From assembly GCA_015852425.1 (NCBI GenBank), contig JAAAIG010000890.1, positions 1 through 15,349 on the forward strand: DNA of 15,349 nt. The letters run 5' to 3'. The stretch is from Gryganskiella cystojenkinii (lineage: Eukaryota; Mortierellomycota; Mortierellomycetes; Mortierellales; Mortierellaceae). Of the stretch, positions 108 through 14,475 are shown piece after piece. A program made the translations under genes and the position numbers. Each line of letters starts with the position of its first letter. The first letter of the stretch is position 1. The notes beneath the pieces were generated by a model, which did no database searches, had not been told where the DNA came from, and was given only the letters and a program-made list of their open reading frames with translations.

Positions 108-3100
108 TCAAATCCGGAAGGCATAGTGTTGACCGCCACTAAAGAGCCTTTGTGTATTGCGATAACGACGATCCTCCTCGGACTCTCCAATCGTCGGGTC
201 CGCTCCGTTTCCCCCGCCTCCTCCTCCTGCTCCAACAAGACCACCAACGGCACCATGACCAGCAGCTGCAGCCACCGAACCAGCAATCGAGACCGTCGGT
301 CGGAGCGATGACGTTTGAGTGGCCTCCTTCTTTAGAACCTCAGCCAAGGGAACCGGTGCAGGAGGCATCTCAAGTAAAAGATCGTCCAATCCCATGGCCA
401 CACCCTTTAGGTTGATCTCATCCCAACAGCTCTCTTCAAAGACTGGTGCGGGGAACCCATAGGCACCCGTCATGGCCGTTCGCATATGGACACCATTCCA
501 GGTCACGACATTGTCGATATCGCGTGTCAACGATCGTCCGACCTTAAACAAGTGACCATAGTAAAACAAACAAATCGTTCGAATCATCAACAAGGGTCCC
601 AAACGTGCCGTGAACGGAATCACCATGTAACGGTTCTCGGGCTTGATCCAGACTTCGGTTCTGGTCGCATCATCTGTCACGGGTGCATAATGACCCGGAA
701 TACATACATAGAGGAAATAACAGGCCAGACGGACATCAAACGCATAACCTAGGGTGCCATCCGGACTAGGGCCTAACTTGATTGGTTTGCCTGAAAACGC
801 TTCCTTGGTCGCACCAGCCCGAGCTCCCGTCGTACACATCACTTGGCACAAGGGGCATTTCAAATTCGAGGCATCGGCCTTGAACCAGTGGCTGATACAG
901 CTCTCGTGGAAACAATGACGACAGCTCCTCAACTTGACCACTCTATCAGGCTCCTGGTCGTTCTTGTTGGATGGCAATGCGGAAGAGGATGATGTTGATG
1001 CTGTCGATGCTGACGCTGCAGTCGTCTTTGAAGGTGAAGTCATGGTCGCATTTTCGGGGATCTCGAGCACCTCCTGACAGATCGGGCATTCTGCTGGCGG
1101 TTGCTTGGAAGGTCCAGCTGCCGTGTGTCTGGTCTTATCATCATCCTGGACCAACATGTGAGGCTCTGCCGTGATGAACAGGTTCTCCATTAAATTTGCC
1201 CCCATCGCTGCAATCTCGGCCTCCCGAGCCTTCCGATCAAAGACCACGCTGCCTGTCCGACTGAGCAAACCTCGGATAGCGGGAATAATCCTTGGATCCA
1301 GCTCTTCCCACTTCTTGGACAAGAACATGCGCAAGTCCAAGCCCTCCAACGGATTCCTCTCCACTCGATCAGCCCTTAATTGAGACTTGAGCTGTCCCGT
1401 CACTGAGGAAGTCTCCCTTGCCTGAATCTTGCGTTTCCGGACCTCGGTCTCCAAAAAGATCCATTCCAGATAGTCTGTTAATTTGAACAGTCGCCGGTTC
1501 GCTAGACGACGACGGGTATTGATGGGCCATAAGATCGGGGATGCCATCGGCATCGAGAATGTGAGCGAAGGTGCAATCTCCCAGAGTTCCTTGACGTCCG
1601 TTAAGCCGAGCTGCTTGATCGTCTCCTCAACTCGAAAGATGGTCGTCTGACTGAGTTGTTGGACTGCTGCACTCGGCATCAGTGTGATCATCAATGCTGG
1701 CATCAACAACTCGGCCACGACCTGGGGCCAGGATTTCAGGGTCACTGTTTGGAAATCCGATTGAGGCATCGAAAACTTCTCCGTTGGGTTGCTGAAGCCA
1801 AGCGTACTACGGTCCTTGTCCGCGTTCACGATCCGGAGTTTCATCTCTAGCTTTGTTAAAGGACAAGCAAAGGCCAGGCCTTGCTGTGTCACCCGTGCAG
1901 TCTCTATGGTGATGGACATCTTGTTCCGATCGTCTCGTTCTTTATCCATCCGACTTTGGTCGTCAAAACTGCGTTGCATCTGAAGAATACTCTCGGCCAA
2001 GGTCTTTTGCTCCTGAGTCCAGGCCGTGGTCGCAGCCAGTTTCTGATCGTACTCGGCCTGCAGGCTCGCAAGGCGCTGTTGAATAGGATGGGCTGCTAAT
2101 TGGAATTGATGACTGTTGGCTGGAATTCCCTGTTGCGCCGCATCTGCATGCAGCTGATTGAGTTCGTTCTGGACCTGAGTACCAAGCGCCTGGATCCGCT
2201 TCAATTCCGGTTCGATATCCTGGACGACTGTCAAGAGTTGTTGGCAATTGGGGATTTTGGCCTTGGCGGCTTCGATGCTCTGGCGTTGCAAGTTCCGAGA
2301 CTTGTTGGCCAGATCTCGGTCTGCCTCCAATCGGGTCTGCAGTGTTTGGATGTTCTTCACGGCACTGATGAGTAAGCTCCGGTTCGGTTCCGAGATGTAG
2401 TACCGTCGCTGCGTTATCTTGATCTTGATCAGCCAATCGACATGTTTTGAAAACTTCAATTTCCGGACTTTGGTCGAGGCAAGATCGGCGTGGAAGACTT
2501 TGGTCAACATGGCGGCAAAGCCTTCGTCGGGTCCATGCCATTCCTCAAGATTTGAGTCTGCTGTTTCCGGGTCCGCGTTCAGGTCTGTCGGGACGGGGAC
2601 CAACAGGTTTCGTTGGATATCGTGGATCGAGGGAGGGTAATGACCGGACGCACGAAAGAGAACCGAATGTTGACTCAGTCTAAAGAAACTGTCTGGGCTG
2701 TTGGTCGCCTTGAAATTGACCACGCACAGAGGCAGGACGTGGGACTTTTCCATGCTATTTTGCGCAGAGAAAAAAATGAAAAAGGAACATGACCAGCAAA
2801 CAGTGTTTTTTTATGATACAAGGATTAGTTCAAAGCCCCCTTTTTCTTTACCCATCCAAAATGATGGGCCGTTTTTTCCCCTGTGGATATACAGCTGTTG
2901 ATAGCTACATCATTATGAAAGGCGTCCTATTGCCATGCGAAAATAACTTACACAATCCACTCTTTGTACACATCGTGCGCGACAGCAGAATCATAACCGG
3001 GGGGCAGAAAATTGGAGGTCGGAAACAGTCGCCTCGAAGACTTTTCATAGGGTTCGACCAGGACGTTGCCCAGGATCACACAACAGAGGATGATGGAATA

Positions 3101-3841
3101 TTCCTGATCCATCGTCGTCTGAGTATCCGTGTACTGCATGCATTTCTCGATTGCGTCCGAGAAATAGAGTCCCTTACCGTAATTAGCCCGGACAGTCATC
3201 TTGGGGTCGAGTCCATTATGGAGGATCGAAGCGATTTTGCTCTTTTGGGTCCCATGAAACAAGATCTCGTCCCGGAATCGATCCTCGGGCGCCTCCCAGT
3301 TTTCGTCTTCCTCTGTCAGGGGCAGGTCCGTCGCAGATGCAGCTCGAGTGCGTTGCCGTTGATCATACCATTTCTTGGATCGCTCACGCCGCATGGCCTT
3401 GGTGGCCTTGTACCGGTCCCAGACCAGAGGGTTACGGAGGATATGAACGGACTCGACCCTGTAATCGGACTGGCGATGCGTGTGGCTGTAGAAATCGTTC
3501 GCGACGATCGAGGCCAGTTCTGGGTATCTGTGCTGATCCAGGTTCAAGAGTCGGGTTCCGCCATAATGACCGGTCGAGGCAGAAGAGACGGTATTCGCCG
3601 TCGCCGTCGCCGTCGAGTCTGTGGAATTGGGGATAGAAGGAAACCCGCCACCTGCGGGGGGTTGGTAGCCAAAAAGACTGTTGTTGGTGTTGGAGCCGTT
3701 GTAGTTGTTGCGAGAGTTGGTTCCTTCGGTTGGGTCAAGAAGAGGGAGGGCGATAGAGTTTTCTTCCTCGAGGGAACAGTCCTCGAAAAAGGGTGTGAAG
3801 AGGTCCGAGAACTCGGCCTTGTTGGTGTGGATGAGGGCCAT
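108..3841 (-). CDS. PARP-RING-Deltex (DTC) fusion protein, two exons
   Basis: Exon 1 is 3841-2952 and exon 2 is 2754-108, giving 1178 residues. The PARP catalytic domain spans about 105-311. It includes RNPLVWDRYK (136-145), LFHGT with His196, YGKGLYF with Tyr226, and Glu294 in YKEWIV, so the triad is His-Tyr-Glu. The last strand (HVLPLCVVNF) comes from exon 2. A helical, probably coiled-coil region covers about 425-575. The RING-H2 ligands are Cys853, Cys856, Cys908, His910, His913, Cys916, Cys930 and Cys933, with a long Ser/Thr/Ala loop between the second and third. A Deltex C-terminal domain follows (about 940-1085), with VGRSLTRDIDNVVTWNGVHM and GFPAP motifs, then a Gly-rich tail. Known family behaviour: PARPs transfer ADP-ribose from NAD+; Deltex RING-DTC modules bind ADP-ribose and ubiquitylate it. 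I infer a self-contained ADP-ribose/ubiquitin enzyme. The ATG at 3841 has an in-frame TAG just upstream. Residues 312-425 and 575-850 match nothing I know. Confidence 0.88.
2755..2951 (-). other. Intron joining the PARP exon to the RING-DTC exon
   Basis: On the minus strand the donor GTAAGT begins at 2951. The acceptor, a T-rich tract followed by TAG, ends at 2755. A CTAAT branch-like site lies between them. Exon 1 ends in phase 2 (GT) and exon 2 supplies C, completing a valine codon (residue 297). The joined frame continues directly into the final PARP strand motif, HVLP followed by hydrophobic residues, which exon 1 alone lacks. This is the main argument that the two long frames are one gene. 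If the intron is retained, translation stops at the TAA inside the donor (2948-2950). Confidence 0.85.
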
Positions 3842-4622: not shown

Positions 4623-6561
4623 CTACTCGTCCTTGAAACGCTTGCCAAGGGACGGCGAGGGCGAAGCCGAGATAAATGAACGAGGGGATGTTGGACGAGA
4701 CGAAGACGCGGCAGGCGCTGAGACCTCTGCATCAAAGTGATACTCACTCGACAGGGGACTGCTGGGTAACGAAGACCCAGATCCAGATCCAGATCCAACA
4801 CTCTGCTCAAGGAACAAGCGACCAGGGCGAGTACGACCCTTAGTGTTGCCCATCAGGGGAGTATGGCTACTGCTTCCTGCTGCTGCACTCTCCTCAATCG
4901 TGGTCAGGAACGAGTCCCGCTTCGAAGGCGAGGCCAATGGCGAGGACACATATACAGCGGAGGCGGCCTCGGAATCCAAGTTCAAGGTCGTGACCGAGCG
5001 TATGGAATCCCGACTGAACCGGCGCGAGTTTCGATTTCCGACGCCGTTATGATGAACCGTCGAGGTACGGGGAGAGTTATCAGGCGAGACACGAGGAGAG
5101 GTACGAGGCGAATTGACAGTGGAAAGAACCTCCATCCAGGACTCGTATCCTTGCCATCCATTCCAACTCTGGCGATAAGCAGCGTTCTTCTTGGGTGCGG
5201 ACAAAGTCGAGGAAGAGGACACAGAGGAAGTAGGCGAAGATGGCTCGGACTGAGACTCCTTGCGCTCCTCCGCCAGAGGATCGATGGAGACAACAATGAC
5301 ATCCGCCATCTCGACGTTCTCGTCCTCATCCTGAACATCGCTGAGGTCCCACTCTTTAGAGTTCTTGAATCCAACAAAGTTGTCCTCATGAGCAGCATCG
5401 AACAAGGTCTGCTTCTCCTGATAGTTCATGGCGTCGCCCAGATCGTGAATCACATGCGAGGCCTTGGGGTTATGGTGGTATTCCTGTTGAGGCAAGACCG
5501 AAGGCAGGAAGAAAGAGCCGATCCAAAACGCAACCACGGCATATCCAGCGCCACCAACGAGATCCACGACGTAATGGTGTCCGAGGTACATGGTTGCCCA
5601 CCAGATCCAAAAGACGTAGCCGACTGCGAAAGGAATCGAACGAGGTCCAAAGATAAAGACCAGGAAGAATGCCAGCTGCCAGGCACAGGCCGAGTGCAAA
5701 GAAGGGAAAGCACCAAAGACCATGGGCGAAGCTGTAAAAGTGGACTTGTACATGTTGGTTCCGAGAATATCATCCACTCGTGCCAATCCACCTGGGTCGC
5801 CAGGCATGGTGTAAGTGGCAGGCTCCCAAGCTCCGTAATGAGACTCGTACCCTAAAAATCGTCATAAAAAGGAAGGTATTTTGTTAGTCTAAAAGTTTTT
5901 ACTTTCTATTTGCACTAACGCACCATTCGCTCATTCTTGTCATGGTTCACAGGTAACCAGCTAAAAACTTACATGGTGGGGCACAAGGGAAGAGAAGCTG
6001 AGTCAAGACACCAGCAACGTTCATGTAACCAAAAGTTCTGGCAAAGACAGGAAGAGTACCGGGAGGTCCAAAAAAGACAATCAAACCAGCAACGACAAAG
6101 GGCAGGACAAAGTGAAGAACGCCATAAGGAATCCAGGCCAAGATATCCTTGAAAGGGGTCGTCGCCACAGCAAGCTTCTCCGAGATGTTGCCTCCGTAGA
6201 GAATGTTTTCAAGTGCAGGCAAGACCGAGGTAAAGATGTGGGGTCTCCAGGACGCAGGGATAAACCGACAGCAGTAAAAGAGAATCAACCAGGCAGCAAT
6301 AGCGAGAAAGGGGAGCATGAACTGACGGGTCTTTTTGGGGATCAAGAGACCGACGGCGAACGAGGCAATTGGCAACTTGAACCAGACGGGCTTGTCCATG
6401 ATACAGTAGCAGAAAGTAAAGAGGATAAAGAGAAAGACATATTGGAGATCAAAGAGGGTATAGCGGTGCTGGCGAAGAGGTTTGATGGTCGAGACGAAAG
6501 CGGCCTTGGTAGCCTTGTGGATCTTGCGATAGCGCAAGTTGACGTTTGTGACGGACAGCAT
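4623..6561 (-). CDS. AUR1: Inositol phosphorylceramide synthase catalytic subunit (Aur1)
   Basis: Exon 1 is 6561-5973, the intron 5852-5972 (GTAAGT donor, TTTTTAG acceptor) and exon 2 5851-4623, giving 605 residues. The splice makes a Trp codon inside the conserved APPWYE motif and restores the family sequence continuously. Aur1 transfers phosphoinositol from phosphatidylinositol to ceramide in the Golgi and is the target of aureobasidin A. Visible landmarks are several hydrophobic segments, DILAWIPYG (about 131-139), FGYMNVAGV and PCAPPW near the splice, PGDPGGLARVD (213-223), FGAFPSLHS with His249, and WWATMYLGHHYVVDLVGG with His289 and Asp293. These match the lipid-phosphatase-type catalytic triad known from yeast Aur1 (His255, His294, Asp298). 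After the last membrane segment comes a hydrophilic Ser-rich tail of roughly 290 residues with SPRTSPRVSPDNSPRTS repeats and a GSGSGSG run, so the protein is much longer than the 401-residue yeast enzyme. Recognition is firm. Confidence 0.95.
5852..5972 (-). other. AUR1 intron
   Basis: A 121-nt GT-AG intron on the minus strand, phase 1. Exon 1 ends with a single T and exon 2 begins GG, which together make the Trp of APPW. Reading through would replace this conserved Trp and soon hit a stop codon. Confidence 0.9.
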
Positions 6562-6929
6562 CGATGTTATGCTGAACTGTGTATGGGGGTATTTGAGCGG
6601 TCACTGTGCTGTCGAAAATGAGAAAGATGTTCGCTATTGCATGTGATGTGAAGAAAGGTGCATTTGCTGGATTCAACAGGATCTGAATGTGAAAGGGGGA
6701 GTGACCGTTGAAGTAGGGATATTGTGGGATGAATTAAAATAGCAGCGTGACTGAGGCAAAGTGAGAGTGATATTATTAGAGAGAGAAAGGGGCAGTAGCA
6801 AATAAAGGTATAGTAATGAGCAAGGATTATGCTGCCAATCTATGTAATGAAGGTATCAAAAAAAACAGAATGGAGACGAAAGGGAAAGGAGAAAATTAAA
6901 AAAAAATGAGCGGCAGACCTGAAGGGTCT

Positions 6930-6937: not shown

Positions 6938-9096
6938 CAAAGGGCGGCTAAATCACCGGTCCTGCACGGTCAAACAGAACCCGCAAGCATTTTTTCCTTA
7001 TCAGAAAGGTTTCTCCATTCAATTGAACTCTCTATTCAATTCACCCCTGTACTTTCTCTTTATTTTTCCAATCTCAGACAGGGTGTTCCTTGTGCTGGCC
7101 TAAAGCTTTGTCCTCTGGGACCTTTTGAACCTGCGGAGAAACAAACAACTTCGTCATCCTTATTTTTTTTTCTGCTTTCCTGTTTGCCTGACATTATTTC
7201 TGCGCAGGTCATACGCAAAACTCGGCCTAATTCCTGGTAAGCGATCGATATTTGTCAACCCTCTCGAAAAATGCTTATTCACTCTCTCCATTTTTTGTTT
7301 TCCACCTCTTTCCGCGATATGGGCAGGACTCGAATTGCGATGCGCAAATATTATTTTTGGCAGGAGGGCATAGTCGTCAATTGCCCACAACAGCTTGATC
7401 GCTGATGATGCACAAAAGTGTCCCTTTTCGCACAATAAAAAAAACAGATACTCTCCGTCCGTCCCTGTCGATTCTGTCCCGTCCCAGATCCTTCGAGAAG
7501 AAAAAAAGAGTCCTGCTGAGATGGTGATGCGAGAGCAAGGACTGTCCTGCTTGGATGTGAAAGAGACCCTGATGATGGCCCTTGACGATACCTCCTGCGT
7601 TGAGGAGAGAGGGGTCCTGTGCAAGATCATGTCATCTCTATCTTGAAAGCTTCTTCTCGTTCTCTCCTTTTTTCTCATCCCTGCTTCTTTCAAAAGAAAA
7701 AAAAAAAGTTGTTAAACATTGAAAAATAAACTCAGTCCCTCGCACGCGAGCAATAACCAACCATACCCCGACGACAACTGAGAAATATTTCGTTGTACGT
7801 GAAAATGAGTTTCTGCACGTATCCCGACCATATGGCAAATGTTTGACTGGGACAGAACTGGAAGCGGGGATTTTTGTTTCTGAGCCTTGACCGTTTCTCC
7901 GGCAACAAGAAAACCCGACAAACAGTGCCTTTTTTTCTCATGGTTGAGCGATCGGATGGGACCGTAAAGACCTTGGTTCAACGGATCCCAGCTCTCCGAA
8001 ATTTGCAGCTCGCATGGCACACCACTGCGATTTTCGTTTTTTAAGAGCTTAGGGATTTTTTATTACTCGGCATAGATCATTCACCTTATGAAAGACAGGC
8101 CAGCATTTGATAATGACAGTGAAAGCTGGACTAAAGTGATCCAATCGATCAAATGGCCACGATGAAATCGTCATCCATATGCTGGACTTACTGTTTATTC
8201 CTCCCGTCCGGCATCTCCCATCTCGCGGTCTTGTCTCTGAAGGAAAGAAAAAGAAAAAAGGTTGCTATCCGTTTTAGGCAACGCAACGAATCGAGTAGCA
8301 ACGGAATGCTCGTTGAGGGATATTGAAGAATCTAGTTCGTTTTTTTGTTTGCATTGTTGAAATTGCTCACATGAGTTGCAGTAGTTCGCTGCGGATAAAC
8401 GTCAGACCCTTTTTTTTTTGCATCTGCTGCCATGATCGCTTTTTTTTAGGTGGGAAGAAACGCGTGCGTTTTAAAGTTTGTGGAAATATGAGAATATTCC
8501 AAGAGAGGAGGACCGGTTAGATGAAAATTTCTCACGGGCCTAGTCCCTGTCTTGGACAATGACACCGAGACATGTCCGCAAAGCGCGGAAACACACTCCA
8601 ACCGTCGCGTCACTAAAACACACAGCTGACCCGACGGTTTATCAACAACACACGATCGCTAACATGTTTCGACGATCCAGGTTGAACTCACGTATATGGG
8701 GCAGCATGACGGGAGATGAAACAATGGCCTGTTGACCGCGGTCGAGTGAACATCCGTAAGGCAAAAATAGGTGCCAAACCGTGAGTCATGAGCAAATTCC
8801 AGGCATGGACAAATAGTATTCTTAAGCGGGTTCAGCTCTCAATTTTATTTAGCTAATATACCCCTTGTCGGTCCCTGCGGCAAAGAGGTTTACCGGGGAA
8901 CCTGACCAGGATCGGCGGATGGAATGGATTTCACGAAAACGCGAAAAGAACACACGCCGGTAGGCGCCTTTAGAGAAGTCGAAGGCTTCCATAGTTGTTG
9001 ATTATGCACAAGCTCGCATTGAAAACCACAAGCACATTAACTTTGCCTTGAGAGCGGTCTTAGGTTCATGCGAGACATGGCCAGGCTGTCATCCCT

Positions 9097-9180
9097 GCGG
9101 TCCCATTTTTTTTTCTTCACTTACCACACTCCAGCCGGTCATACTCTTCCTTCTCTTATTCTTCTTTTTTATCTCCCCTC
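9097..9180 (+). promoter_or_regulatory. Pyrimidine-rich leader upstream of the unknown gene
   Basis: A T/C-rich stretch ends shortly before the ATG at 9227. The frame of the downstream gene happens to stay open through it from 9068, which would give an N-terminus rich in Phe and Leu. I read it as leader or promoter DNA, because the same kind of tract lies before the other genes here. Confidence 0.45.
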
Positions 9181-9226
9181 TCTCTCCAAGGCCCTCAGTT
9201 CTCGAATACGATTGTTCATACTATCC

Positions 9227-10303
9227 ATGGGAGTCATCACACGAGCCGCGGCCAGGAGAGCCAAGGAAAGAGAAGAAGAACAACGGCAATCGAGCTCGGA
9301 GAAGGAGGTAGTCGTAGCCATGACTCGAGATGACTGCCGGGATGGCAACACCGACTTGATACTTTGCACGGATCATGCAAGTACGATCATCGCTCCTGAG
9401 TCCGAAATAGGTTCACAGTCCTCAAAGCCGCAGCAACAGCCTGACTCTCCAAAGACCGCTGTTAAAGTCCAAGTCGAGGATAGGGACAACCGCCCCGGCG
9501 GTGGATATGACGAAGATAGAGATGGAAGGGGAGGAGTCGAAGAACTAGAAGGAGAGGTCAAGTATGATGATGACGGCTGCTCGGACTCGGAAATAAACTC
9601 GGCGAATCCAAAGACTGATGAGACCCAGGGGTTGACCTTGGGATCTGACCAATCCAGGAAGATAAGGAATAAGAAAAAAAACCAACGCCGCAAGAAGAAA
9701 CTCAACCAGGCAAAAGCCGACGGGAGTGTCATGACTGCTGCTGCCAACGTTGATTCCAACGATAATGCGAACGAAAGCGTTCTGGATCGTGTCAAAGCAG
9801 TCTTCAGACGCTCCTCCGATGCAGTTCCTCGTTCCTCGTTATCCTTCACTTTGGCCCCCGAGGACGCCGACGGTGATTTCGACTTCAAAAAAATGAACAC
9901 CTTTGTAACGGATGTCACAGACTATTATAAAGCTCGTTTAAGTCCCGAAGAGCAGGAACTTGAACCGTACATGCACAAGCTCCTCCAAGCCCGGATCTAC
10001 GCCATGGTCTACTACAACGAATCCTTTAAAACCTTTAGCCATATCAGAGACTATTTTACGAATTCAGGGAACTTGGCGACTGTCACAACGGATCCCGCCA
10101 AGGAGAAATCAGATCGTTTGTCGATTTTACGCCACATGCTTGCTTTGCGGTATCTTTTGGTTGAGGCCGAAGCGTCGCGGGTGCTGAGGTTTGGTCTGAC
10201 GAACAAGGAACTGAAAAGACTGGAGGACCTCCGAGTCTTCGTTGAAGAGCTAAATCTTAATCCGAAGGACTTACACGCTATGATTGAAAAGCTTGAATAC
10301 TGA
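9227..10303 (+). CDS. Unrecognised protein, probably nuclear, 358 residues
   Basis: I do not recognise this family. A single uninterrupted frame runs from the ATG at 9227 to the TGA at 10301-10303. I prefer this ATG over the upstream in-frame one at 9068 because the intervening codons derive from a pyrimidine-rich leader; with 9068 the protein would have 411 residues. Residues 1-140 are hydrophilic and acidic, rich in Glu, Asp, Ser and Gly. Residues 145-159 form a strong basic cluster (KIRNKKKNQRRKKK), a likely nuclear or nucleolar localisation signal or RNA-contacting patch. Residues 217-358 look folded and helical, with aromatic residues (TDYYKARLSP, ARIYAMVYYNESF) and a Leu-rich C-terminus that ends in KLEY. 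No catalytic motif, zinc ligand, signal peptide or membrane segment is visible. It converges with a pseudogene whose last codon lies 7 bases away. The frame is intact, so it is probably a real gene. Confidence 0.7.
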   Translation: MGVITRAAARRAKEREEEQRQSSSEKEVVVAMTRDDCRDGNTDLILCTDHASTIIAPESEIGSQSSKPQQQPDSPKTAVKVQVEDRDNRPGGGYDEDRDGRGGVEELEGEVKYDDDGCSDSEINSANPKTDETQGLTLGSDQSRKIRNKKKNQRRKKKLNQAKADGSVMTAAANVDSNDNANESVLDRVKAVFRRSSDAVPRSSLSFTLAPEDADGDFDFKKMNTFVTDVTDYYKARLSPEEQELEPYMHKLLQARIYAMVYYNESFKTFSHIRDYFTNSGNLATVTTDPAKEKSDRLSILRHMLALRYLLVEAEASRVLRFGLTNKELKRLEDLRVFVEELNLNPKDLHAMIEKLEY

Positions 10304-10310
10304 GCCTCCA

Positions 10311-11958
10311 TCAGTGTTCGTGTACATATAAAAATTGCAGCAGCAACAGGTAAACCTCTGCTTCATGCTTCCGTTCCTCCATCACTGCGCGTTCGTTCCA
10401 TATATCGCACTTCTTCACAACAACATCGCAGGCTTGCCATGATGCCTTGTAGGTTTGTGCCCCTTCATCGTACGATATCAGTTGCAAGCTGTCAAAAGCT
10501 GGGACAATCACTCGGGGAATGTTCTTGGACCTTGATCGCGTCTTGGGAGCACGGATCTGGATTATTTTCATGGGATGTTAGTTAAGAGTTGGCTGGAAAC
10601 ACCATTAAGTTGTCAGCTAAGGCGTATCAAACTACAAGGACGACATAGAGCCCTTGAATCGACCCGTCTTTTGTTTGTACAGACTATTGTCTTGCTTTCC
10701 CTCGTCGTTGGGTCGACTCTCATTTTCAAGAATCATTTCCACGGTAGAATCGGTCGGAGGGTCTAAGGCTTGTTTGGAAGCATTCGCCCGTCTTACAAAC
10801 CAGTAAACCACAGGTTACACTGTAGGAGAGAAGGCTCTGTACGATTGAAAGCGATCGCTGTTGAAACCACGAGATTGTTCGTTCCCTCTCGCTTGAAGAA
10901 CCATATTTGCTCGTACGTCGATAGAACGCCGTAATGATATCCATTGAGGCGCATATACCCACATGTCTGTTTGAGAGCGCATGCTGCGCCTCTTGCTACA
11001 CCAGACTGCTCCTGCGCCCTATAATCAGCCACCAAATTTGCCGACTGTAGGATAACCAGTCTCTTGATCTCGATGGGGAAGAGAACCGCCTCTGGTGCAC
11101 TGGGATCACCACTTTCCTTCAAGCTCACAACGTCAGGTCTGCATTTTGCATACTGAGTGCAACCGTTGCCTCAAACTCGAGCCATGTCTTGATATCAGCT
11201 CCCTATGTCCTCAGATCCGTCAGGCTGTCTGAGTGTCGCACTGGGATGATTACATCCTTCACGTATACCAAGAGATATAGGTTCCCACGACGAAACATGC
11301 GCAACAAACTGCCAGCCAGGTAAAATAGCGTGAGTGATATCAAAGTCGCTTGTAGACGGTCCGACGAGTTTTTCAACATTTTGCCAACCTACAAAGTCCT
11401 TGTGAGATGTAAGAACTGTCATTTAGTGAAAGACAAAACAAGATCGCCCAGTGATGCTGCCTAAGCTTCACTCACCTCGCTGCCCTAGCGTCTTTTGCGA
11501 GCTTTCAACAGCGTTCGTGCCGAGACTTCGCTTCTTTCTGTTTTCGACCTGAGATGCTACTGAAGACGTCAAAGACTCGGTGTCTTCGCCAGGTTGTCAA
11601 GTTGCCGTGTTCATTTCATTGGACTATCAATACTTACCAGCATTTCTTTTTTCGAGTACTTTTAATCGACACCCTCGCGAGAGATTCCGATCCCTTGACG
11701 ACATTCGACGCAGTTATCATCTGGGATGCTTTCGATTGTCGGTCCAGCCAGAATGGGACTCAATCGTTGATTTTCCAGTGCGTAAAAATTTCGCAGCAGC
11801 TCCAATTTAACATGCTCTTCCAGGTGGCTTTCCTAGATCTTTTGTTGGTATCTATGATGGCCATGTTGCTTGATGTATACATCAAACTTCTCGAAGAATG
11901 CGCGAGGTGATTTGTCACTGGCAGACACGATCCAAGACGACACAGATTCAGTTGACAT
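10311..11958 (-). pseudogene. Decayed Crinkler-like nuclease-kinase gene, 3' truncated
   Basis: Coding-like sequence runs on the minus strand from an ATG at 11958 (context AACGCCATGTCA) to 10311 but is broken. In-frame stops occur at codon 42 (TAG, 11833-11835) and codon 99 (TAA, 11662-11664). Frameshifts lie near 11195, near 11140 and at 10795-10810. Plausible introns remain: a GTAAGT donor at 11637, a GTGAGT donor at about 11473, and an intron at about 10557-10635 with a CTAAC branch and CAG acceptor. Recognisable pieces include RPDVVS followed by FPIEIKR (about 11061-11140), a PD-(D/E)XK nuclease-like core. Further on, ASWQACDVVVKKCD followed by HEAEVY (about 10350-10450) resembles a protein-kinase N-lobe with its Lys and alpha-C Glu. 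The C-lobe is absent; the sequence ends just beyond the neighbouring gene's stop. Nuclease-like plus kinase pairs are known from Crinkler-type proteins expanded in Mucoromycota. The family call is tentative; the decay is clear. Confidence 0.7.
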
Positions 11959-12654: not shown

Positions 12655-14475
12655 TTAACCTCCGATCAAGATCATGGGTCGGTTCTTCATATGGACGAGG
12701 TTTGACATGCCCGCATGTTGCTTCTTCTTGTTCTTGACCGCAATCTCGATTACTTCGCGAAGTTCCTCATCCGTCTTGCCCTGGCGCATCATATCCCTGA
12801 GCGAGACCTCGGTGTTACCAAACAGACAGACCTTCAGATTTCCATCCGCCGTGATTCGAAGTCGATTGCAGGTGCCACAGAAATGATCCGACATCGAGGT
12901 AATGAATCCTACTTGTCCTGCAAAACCGGGGACATGATAAGCCTTGGAAGTGTCGTTGGGATCATCGACGAGTTTCTTAAACGTTGGGTGAACCTTTTGA
13001 ATGTTCTGGATTAGCTCCTGGTAAGGGACCAACTTGTTCTCCTTCCATTTGTTTCCTAAAGATGAAAATACAAGTTGCAATGGTTAGTTCCTAAGTGGCC
13101 AATGAGGTAAAGAATTTGGCGAAAAAGAGCTTAATAGAAAATATCTGGTGGCGCTCACGCATGATAACTCACCTCCAAAGGGCATATATTCGATGAATCG
13201 AACGTCTACTTTTTTGTTCCGCGTAAATTCGACAAAGTCCAAGACTTCCTTGTCGTTCGTCTCACGCATCACCACGCAGTTGACCTTGACCGGTGACAAA
13301 CCCAACGCCAGAGCATCGTCAATTGTTTCCATAACTCTTTCGAATCCTTTACGACGGGTCATCAACTCAAACTTGAATCGATCCAGGGTATCCAAACTGA
13401 GGTTGAGCAAGTTCATACCACTGCCGACCAAACTGGGGAGCTTTCGTTTCAGAGCGATACCGTTTGAGGTCATGGCGATGGTCTTGAGTCCCAGCGGTTG
13501 CAACTCGCCCAATTGTGCTAATGTTGGAAAAAAAAAGCAGGAGAGGAGGGTGGAAGTGAGTCATTCGGTTATTTTGCCTAGCTGAAGAGTTGCGCAGTCT
13601 AAAAACAATACGGCGAGAGAACATGGAAACAAAACAACAGAAACACAGCGAGCTCTCTCATCACAGTGTCGTCTTGGCCTTTGATTTAAAAAACATAGTG
13701 ATATATCGTACCAACAAGTTCGTTGATGTCCTTGCGCACAGTCGGTTCGCCTCCTGTGAGTCGAATCTTGGTTACGCCTTCGCCGACGAAAAGACGGGCG
13801 AGTCGGATAATCTCTGGTGTGGTCAAAATGTCATCCTTAGGGGACAGTTCCACTCCTTCTGCTGGCATACAATATGTGCCTAGGATTATGCCAAAAAAAA
13901 CGAGAAAACATAGAAATAAGTAAAATGGAGGGATCACAGTACTTTCGGATTGGCTTTGCTGTAACTCTTATTGCAAGATCTGTTTCGGCTTTGTGCAAAT
14001 CGAAGGTCAACACTTACATCTAAGGTTGCATTTTTCAGTGAGAGAGATTCGGAGGTAGGTGTGTTGCCTTGAGAAATTATCGGTCAAAACGTTGGAGAAT
14101 GGTCGCTCTTGGTCGATGGTTGCAATCTTTGCCTAAATCAAAGAAAAGAGAACATTGAGGGTTAGAGGGCAGATCTGGAAGTAATAACAAAAAGCACAAA
14201 GGACAGGTCAAACTCTCTCGCACCTGGACTCGTTGCTTTATGCTTGTTTGCGACAAGGTTGGAGACAAAGGCGCAGTTGCTGGTAGGGGTGGAGGTGAAT
14301 CCACTTGGGTATCTTCTTGAGGGGCGAGTGCAGGCTGAGAGTAATGACGGAGTGAATGCGTTGAGGAAGCAGGACCAAAGATTCTTGAATGAGACTGTCC
14401 CGGGGCGATGGACCAGCGGAGAAGGGAGATTGCCTGCCTCGAGGGTGCAAAGAGGCCAGTTGCTGTCCTGGACAT
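12655..14475 (-). CDS. MOCS1A: GTP 3',8-cyclase, mitochondrial (MOCS1A/MoaA), five exons
   Basis: Exons: 14475-14224, 14132-14018, 13879-13712, 13517-13173 and 13055-12655. Introns are 91, 138, 194 and 117 nt, all GT-AG. The product has 426 residues. This radical-SAM enzyme starts molybdenum-cofactor synthesis by converting GTP to 3',8-cyclo-7,8-dihydro-GTP, normally in mitochondria. The N-terminal 84 residues are rich in Arg, Ser and Ala with little acid, as in a mitochondrial presequence. The radical-SAM cluster motif is Cys119, Cys123, Cys126 (CNLRCTYC); this motif spans an intron and appears only after splicing. RLTGGEP (162-168) is the SAM-binding glycine motif. MTSNG and MPFGGNKW follow, the latter also made by splicing. 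The C-terminal second-cluster cysteines are 353, 356 and 370 (CGTC, then 13 residues, then Cys). The protein ends NRPMILIGG, the conserved Gly-Gly tail needed for activity in this family. No MoaC domain is attached. Confidence 0.95.

Follow-up and report, generated by a model that had tools for sequence, protein, structure and literature searches.

A two-exon gene of the fungus Gryganskiella cystojenkinii predicted to encode a PARP domain and a Deltex-type RING-DTC module in a single chain

The stretch of DNA analyzed in this work (hereinafter the window) corresponds to bases 1-15,349 of contig C952 in the Gryganskiella cystojenkinii assembly (34,989,676 bases in 1,050 contigs), and harbors on its minus strand a gene whose two exons, 3841-2952 and 2754-108, form a single frame of 1178 residues running from the ATG at 3841 to the stop codon at 110-108. 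We moderately favor the idea that this one fungal gene gives one chain, in which an N-terminal PARP ADP-ribosyltransferase is followed by a C-terminal Deltex RING-DTC ligase with catalytic residues in both, and which would likely act as an ADP-ribose writer and as an ADP-ribose-directed ubiquitin ligase. The further proposal of a one-chain ADP-ribose-ubiquitin synthase outside animals, that is, a fungal enzyme that both deposits ADP-ribose and adds an ester-linked ubiquitin cap to that very mark, is advanced tentatively. The gene (hereinafter the fusion gene) is laid out as follows.

2952..3841, minus strand: exon 1, with the ATG, a low-complexity N-terminus and the bulk of the PARP catalytic domain (residues 1-296 plus two bases of codon 297; open frame, Pfam PARP).
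2755..2951, minus strand: intron of 197 nucleotides, GTAAGT...TAG (splice-motif and join tests).
108..2754, minus strand: exon 2, with the last PARP strand, a middle region, RING-H2, DTC, a C-terminal tail and the stop at 110-108 (open frame, Pfam).
2952..3529, minus strand: exon 1 portion of the PARP catalytic domain, residues about 105-296 (the Pfam match starts at residue 119 and the start at 105 comes from the sequence-only reading; alignment with the canonical PARP).
2712..2754, minus strand: PARP catalytic domain, exon 2 part, that is, the last strand, residues 297-311 (join scoring; outside the Pfam match).
1089..2711, minus strand: middle region of no recognized family, residues 312-852 (Pfam matches below cut-off only).
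846..1088, minus strand: RING-H2 finger, residues 853-933 (Pfam match from residue 898 on; metal ligands).
399..827, minus strand: DTC domain, residues about 940-1082 (Pfam PF18102 on residues 1031-1082 only; PDB match to DTX3L; hhalign).

An earlier reading of the letters alone had proposed that the splicing of 2755-2951 joins PARP, RING-H2 and DTC domains in one 1178-residue frame and at the same time completes the last PARP strand. Coordinates, intron, frame and domains were all recovered as it had described them, and the claim concerning the last strand withstood a comparison with the alternatives: 74 GT-AG joins leave an open frame when donors are taken from 3080 to 2900 and acceptors from 40 nucleotides further on down to 2400. 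When each of these joins was scored by its similarity to the last strand in the genome's own canonical PARP, the proposed one ranked first with a score of 26, the runner-up reaching 15; across the contig, not one of 30,562 windows taken in six frames attained 26. Exon 1 residues contribute 18 of the 26 points, the remaining 8 being due to exon 2 together with the split codon; the exon 2 side taken alone is equaled by two of the contig's 17,601 peptides of 17 residues without a stop. The same join was again the first when the plant protein RCD1 was adopted as a second reference (combined score 64 vs. 38, the best six-frame window scoring 42); RCD1 was retrieved using the joined peptide itself (E 0.37) and is, therefore, a non-independent reference.

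The intron contains stops in all three frames, and its GTAAGT...TAG form recurs in the intron of the adjacent PAP2 gene and in two of those that interrupt the canonical PARP gene; a MoaA-type gene of the window shows GTGAGT, unlike the donor of the fusion gene. Moreover, the codon usage of the two exons is correlated (0.53) in the reading frame, the values for the other five frames being at most 0.38. On these grounds of sequence (splice-site form, restored last PARP strand and codon usage) the join between exon 1 and exon 2 is confirmed, and the transcript is expected to be spliced at these sites in the cell.

The search with profiles that had been suggested as a check on the domains was carried out and placed the Pfam families PARP, RING and DTC all above their cut-offs. 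As for the PARP half, PF00644 (cut-off 26.7) reaches 57 bits on exon 1 and 54.3 bits in the joined protein, where it covers residues 119-261. The residues H196 (3256-3254), Y226 (3166-3164) and E294 (2962-2960) align with the histidine, tyrosine and glutamate in the signature motifs of the genome's canonical PARP, and, going by human PARP1, we take them to be catalytic. The stretch from the tyrosine to the glutamate embeds 68 residues in the fusion PARP and 98 in the canonical one, so that the loops of the two domains differ. A search of PDB sequences with the PARP domain at E 1 retrieved 91 sequences, the best with 2.8e-4; the best matches were PARP1 chains, and no PARP9 chain was present among the best 60 of the 91. 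The PARP domain has the residues expected for chemistry on nicotinamide adenine dinucleotide (NAD+), ADP-ribosyl transfer being its predicted activity.

Concerning the ligase half, the Pfam family zf-RING_2 scores 31.2 bits in exon 2 and 30.4 bits in the joined protein (cut-off 27.3; residues 898-934), and all eight metal ligands are present (C853, C856, C908, H910, H913, C916, C930 and C933). A Ser/Thr-rich insert lies between the second and the third ligand and splits the first pair from the rest, so that the RING starts at C853, ahead of the Pfam match. The RING immediately precedes the DTC, an order collinear with that of the RING-DTC of DTX1. The DTC family (PF18102) scores 30.7 bits in exon 2 and 30.3 bits in the joined protein (cut-off 25; residues 1031-1082), and 33.1 bits on the segment 399-1130 alone. 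Through the PDB match 3pg6, the residues H1053 (488-486), Y1062 (461-459) and E1076 (419-417) align with H707, Y719 and E733 of DTX3L, in the numbering of PMC11460948 assigned by spacing. An alanine at any one of these three positions damages the transfer of ubiquitin to DNA by DTX3L, whose pocket for the ubiquitylation of nucleic acids is shared with ADP-ribose (PMC11460948), and H582 and E608 of DTX2 are the catalytic pair proposed to act on ADP-ribose (PMC7615817). By alignment, the fusion DTC carries the catalytic histidine and glutamate and, at the third pocket position, where a histidine or a tyrosine is expected, a tyrosine.

Among PDB sequences, the RING-DTC segment matched DTX3L best (6.5e-5), followed by RNF126 (9.9e-4), DTX1 (1.6e-3) and DTX2 (3e-3). 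Using hhalign with a reference profile built on DTX1 (180 residues) and part of DTX3L (98 residues), the whole RING-DTC segment was aligned end to end over 163 columns (probability 94.9, E 4.6e-8), two other segments of the window used as controls giving probabilities of 0.2 and 0.1; once the RING was removed, only the last 57 residues were aligned (probability 93.1). The identification of the second half of the DTC with its catalytic residues is firm as far as sequence goes, the divergent first half representing the main weakness of the assignment. The RING-DTC carries residues expected for the ubiquitylation of ADP-ribose, its predicted activity.

If both halves are active, the PARP part, using NAD+, would modify a target, or the fusion protein itself, with ADP-ribose; the DTC part would bind the mark; the RING would position the E2~ubiquitin; and ubiquitin would finally be linked to a hydroxyl of the ADP-ribose. 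Such steps have been described for separate human proteins, with DTX2 acting on auto-modified PARP10 (PMC7615817) and, in cells, on PARP7 (PMC12583694). Marking and ubiquitylation might both be performed by one fungal chain; the activity of the two halves, their coupling in one molecule and the nature of the targets are predictions.

Several findings weigh against this picture. As regards the PARP half, the Pfam match spans only positions 13-124 of the 199 of the profile and is moderate; searching PDB sequences at E 1e-5 with either the PARP domain or exon 1 retrieved nothing; and the AlphaFold2 model of the exon 1 PARP part, obtained without an alignment, was unusable (mean predicted local distance difference test, pLDDT, 36.6). 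As regards the ligase half, the DTC match is restricted to profile positions 79-133 of 133; the first half of the domain has no similarity detectable by itself with either hhalign or Pfam and is aligned solely in the presence of the RING, so that a complete DTC pocket is putative; RNF126 ranked second, above DTX1, on the RING alone, indicating that the RING resembles other RING ligases equally; the tail segment alone matched DTX2 only at E 0.18; and the AlphaFold2 model of the RING-DTC without an alignment was also unusable (mean pLDDT 35.0). Lastly, six-frame searches of the assembly found no macrodomain (PF01661), a search that was positive in eight of 14 control genomes, and no Di19, for which one of the 14 was positive; no match to WWE and HPF1 was found either, and since no control genome was positive for these two, an absence is not implied.

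Different explanations can be proposed for the same gene. It is possible, even though we judge it unlikely, that in the fused protein the DTC acts in recruitment only: the PARP would mark the target, the DTC would read the mark and the RING would ubiquitylate nearby lysines. The RING and the DTC are indeed both present, the binding of PARylated repair proteins by DTX2, and its recruitment of ADP-ribosylated proteins that are then ubiquitinated, have been reported (PMC8883491), and the divergent first half of the DTC could retain binding and lose catalysis; nevertheless, the residues for catalysis on the hydroxyl, H1053 and E1076, are kept, together with Y1062.

Somewhat less probable is a self-directed activity, in which the PARP auto-modifies and the RING-DTC ubiquitylates the mark in cis, leading to an NAD+-sensitive self-destruction or self-extraction. 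The ubiquitylation of auto-ADP-ribosylated PARP10 by DTX2 (PMC7615817) and the likewise marked PARP7 of cells with DTX2 (PMC12583694) offer precedents, and a fusion might make self-modification easy; nowhere, however, does the sequence favor the protein itself over other targets, and such a behavior would be compatible with the writer-and-ligase interpretation preferred here.

One might also imagine that one of the two halves, PARP or DTC, is no longer active and has been retained as a pseudoenzyme that binds, as reported for PARP9 in the PARP9/DTX3L pair. The moderate PARP score and the divergence of the first DTC half are what such a protein could display, but the two sets of active-site residues are both intact by alignment, and we regard this explanation as improbable. 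The existence of two genes or transcripts, with exon 2 giving a free RING-DTC protein from its own ATG (2753-2751; in frame, one base past the acceptor) or possibly from an alternative start inside the intron, and with exon 1 giving an unfinished PARP, can be considered very improbable, since the fact that the exon 2 side provides only 8 of the 26 last-strand points is countered by an unspliced exon 1 that runs into a stop at bases 2-4 of the intron without the last PARP strand, by a join that restores this strand better than the other 73 tested and by a codon usage of exon 1 that correlates best with that of exon 2 in the reading frame.

Returning to the fusion of a PARP with a Deltex ligase, several known systems come close to it. 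The sequence-only reading had regarded the gene as a "Rosetta stone" of human PARP9 and DTX3L. Part of this parallel stands: as in PARP9/DTX3L (with PARP14), a PARP-fold protein is coupled to a Deltex RING-DTC ligase, here within a single gene, the Deltex half matches DTX3L best, and the tyrosine at the third pocket position is common to both. The PARP9 side of the parallel is looser. The H-Y-E triad of PARPs is replaced by Q-Y/S-T/S in the PARP9 clade, and human PARP9 possesses two macrodomains and has been reported as inactive (PMC2964712), although one study suggested an activity (PMC8883491); unlike it, the fusion PARP is H-Y-E, has no macrodomain by Pfam and finds its best PDB matches in PARP1. 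Furthermore, what animals distribute over two polypeptides is one chain in the fungus.

A second counterpart is represented by PARP7 or PARP10 acting with DTX2 (MARUbylation), where an active PARP writes ADP-ribose and a Deltex adds ester-linked ubiquitin (PMC12583694, PMC7615817); that pair consists of separate proteins acting in trans. By analogy, the fusion looks functionally closer to an active PARP + Deltex pair, such as PARP7 with DTX2 (PMC12583694), than to PARP9/DTX3L.

Other PARPs are themselves joined to the ubiquitin machinery. In fungal Clade 6A the catalytic domain is followed by a C-terminal E2-like UBCc domain (PMC2964712), and PARP-E2-like fusions have been described in G. zeae and A. 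nidulans (PMC1266365); these proteins carry an E2-like domain rather than a RING-DTC, and in Clade 6 another residue is said to stand in place of the triad glutamate (PMC2964712), a glutamate that the fusion PARP retains. Similarly, Dictyostelium DDB0232928 combines a PARP with an E3-type domain on a single chain, but the latter is an N-terminal U-box, there is no RING-DTC, and a macrodomain is present (PMC2964712). Finally, the genome's canonical PARP shares with the fusion the catalytic fold and the H-Y-E residues, differing from it in its PARP1-type layout and in its longer Tyr-Glu stretch.

Fusions of PARPs with the ubiquitin machinery were hence already known in fungi (E2-like) and in Dictyostelium (U-box), and, going by the literature matches listed, a PARP with a RING-DTC in a fungus appears to be a new layout. 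No fungal PARP-DTC fusion was found among those matches (titles and starts of abstracts), though domain databases may already list the architecture, and a word search of eight papers on Deltex or ADP-ribose-ubiquitin found no mention of fungi. Two surveys, both of them old, are relevant in this respect. The one of 2010 found no fungal PARPs outside Clades 1 and 6, its sampling of early-branching fungi being poor (PMC2964712). In the one of 2009, Deltex, defined there by WWE + RING, was called holozoan-specific (PMC2770060), a view with which a fungal RING-DTC with intact catalytic residues contrasts.

The linkage of ubiquitin to ADP-ribose was discovered recently, in work on separate human proteins, and according to a 2025 review firm conclusions on its physiological roles are premature (PMC12687431). 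If the proposal of a one-chain synthase is correct, one protein would perform two steps that animal cells divide between proteins, and the PARP-Deltex partnership would be either older than animals or invented twice. The fusion would fix this partnership covalently, a sign that the writer goes with the capper, and would also offer a single recombinant protein with two separately switchable steps.

The genomic context was explored by six-frame searches of the assembly, whose counts are lower bounds. Just one DTC match was found, namely, the one in the fusion gene. PARP matches fall in two genes, the fusion gene and a BRCT-WGR-PRD-PARP gene (C1022:3000-12500, minus strand), which is the canonical PARP referred to above and which has at least two introns and 693 residues once joined. 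Searching the assembly for paralogues of exon 2 retrieved only exon 2 itself, and no second copy of the middle region was found. PARG-type matches occur on two contigs (C846 and C144) and ADP-ribosyl-glycohydrolase matches on one (C292); given these matches, erasers of ADP-ribose are likely present in the genome, which speaks in favor of the writer-and-ligase interpretation. On these three contigs, some of the matched stretches hold stops, perhaps corresponding to introns.

Relatives were also sought beyond this genome. Scans of viral contigs gave 2 pattern matches with the RING-DTC, 1 with the PARP domain and 17 with an alignment of DTX1 and DTX3L, none of them upheld by tblastn; scans of viral contigs with a single protein detect close relatives only. 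The same outcome was obtained for bacterial and archaeal genomes scanned with an alignment of the window and DTX sequences (57 pattern matches, none upheld by tblastn). The possibility of a bacterial or viral contaminant was considered and rejected, the fusion gene having an intron and adjoining an intron-bearing PAP2-family gene in a genome of 35 Mb; chance open frames were also considered as an explanation and rejected.

Within the fusion protein, the middle region shows weak matches of coiled-coil type around residues 420-560 (Pfam, below cut-off) and might, as far as these matches suggest, form a coiled coil. No Pfam match to WGR, BRCT, PARP regulatory, macro or WWE domains was present in the joined protein up to E 1, and the NCBIfam search gave two matches, both far below cut-off.

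As for the remainder of the window, the neighbor of the fusion gene is the PAP2-family gene (4623-6600, minus strand), composed of two exons, both matched by PAP2_3, with an intron of the form GTAAGT...TAG; it looks like the fungal inositol phosphorylceramide synthase AUR1, in keeping with a fungal source of the DNA. Two open frames have no assigned family: one of 420 residues at 9041-10303 on the plus strand, with no Pfam match above cut-off, and one of 125 residues at 10793-11170 on the minus strand, with no Pfam match at E 0.1. Lastly, Radical_SAM and Mob_synth_C matches at 12655-13560 on the minus strand point to a gene of the MoaA/MOCS1A type (molybdenum cofactor), whose two open frames are probably separated by an intron.

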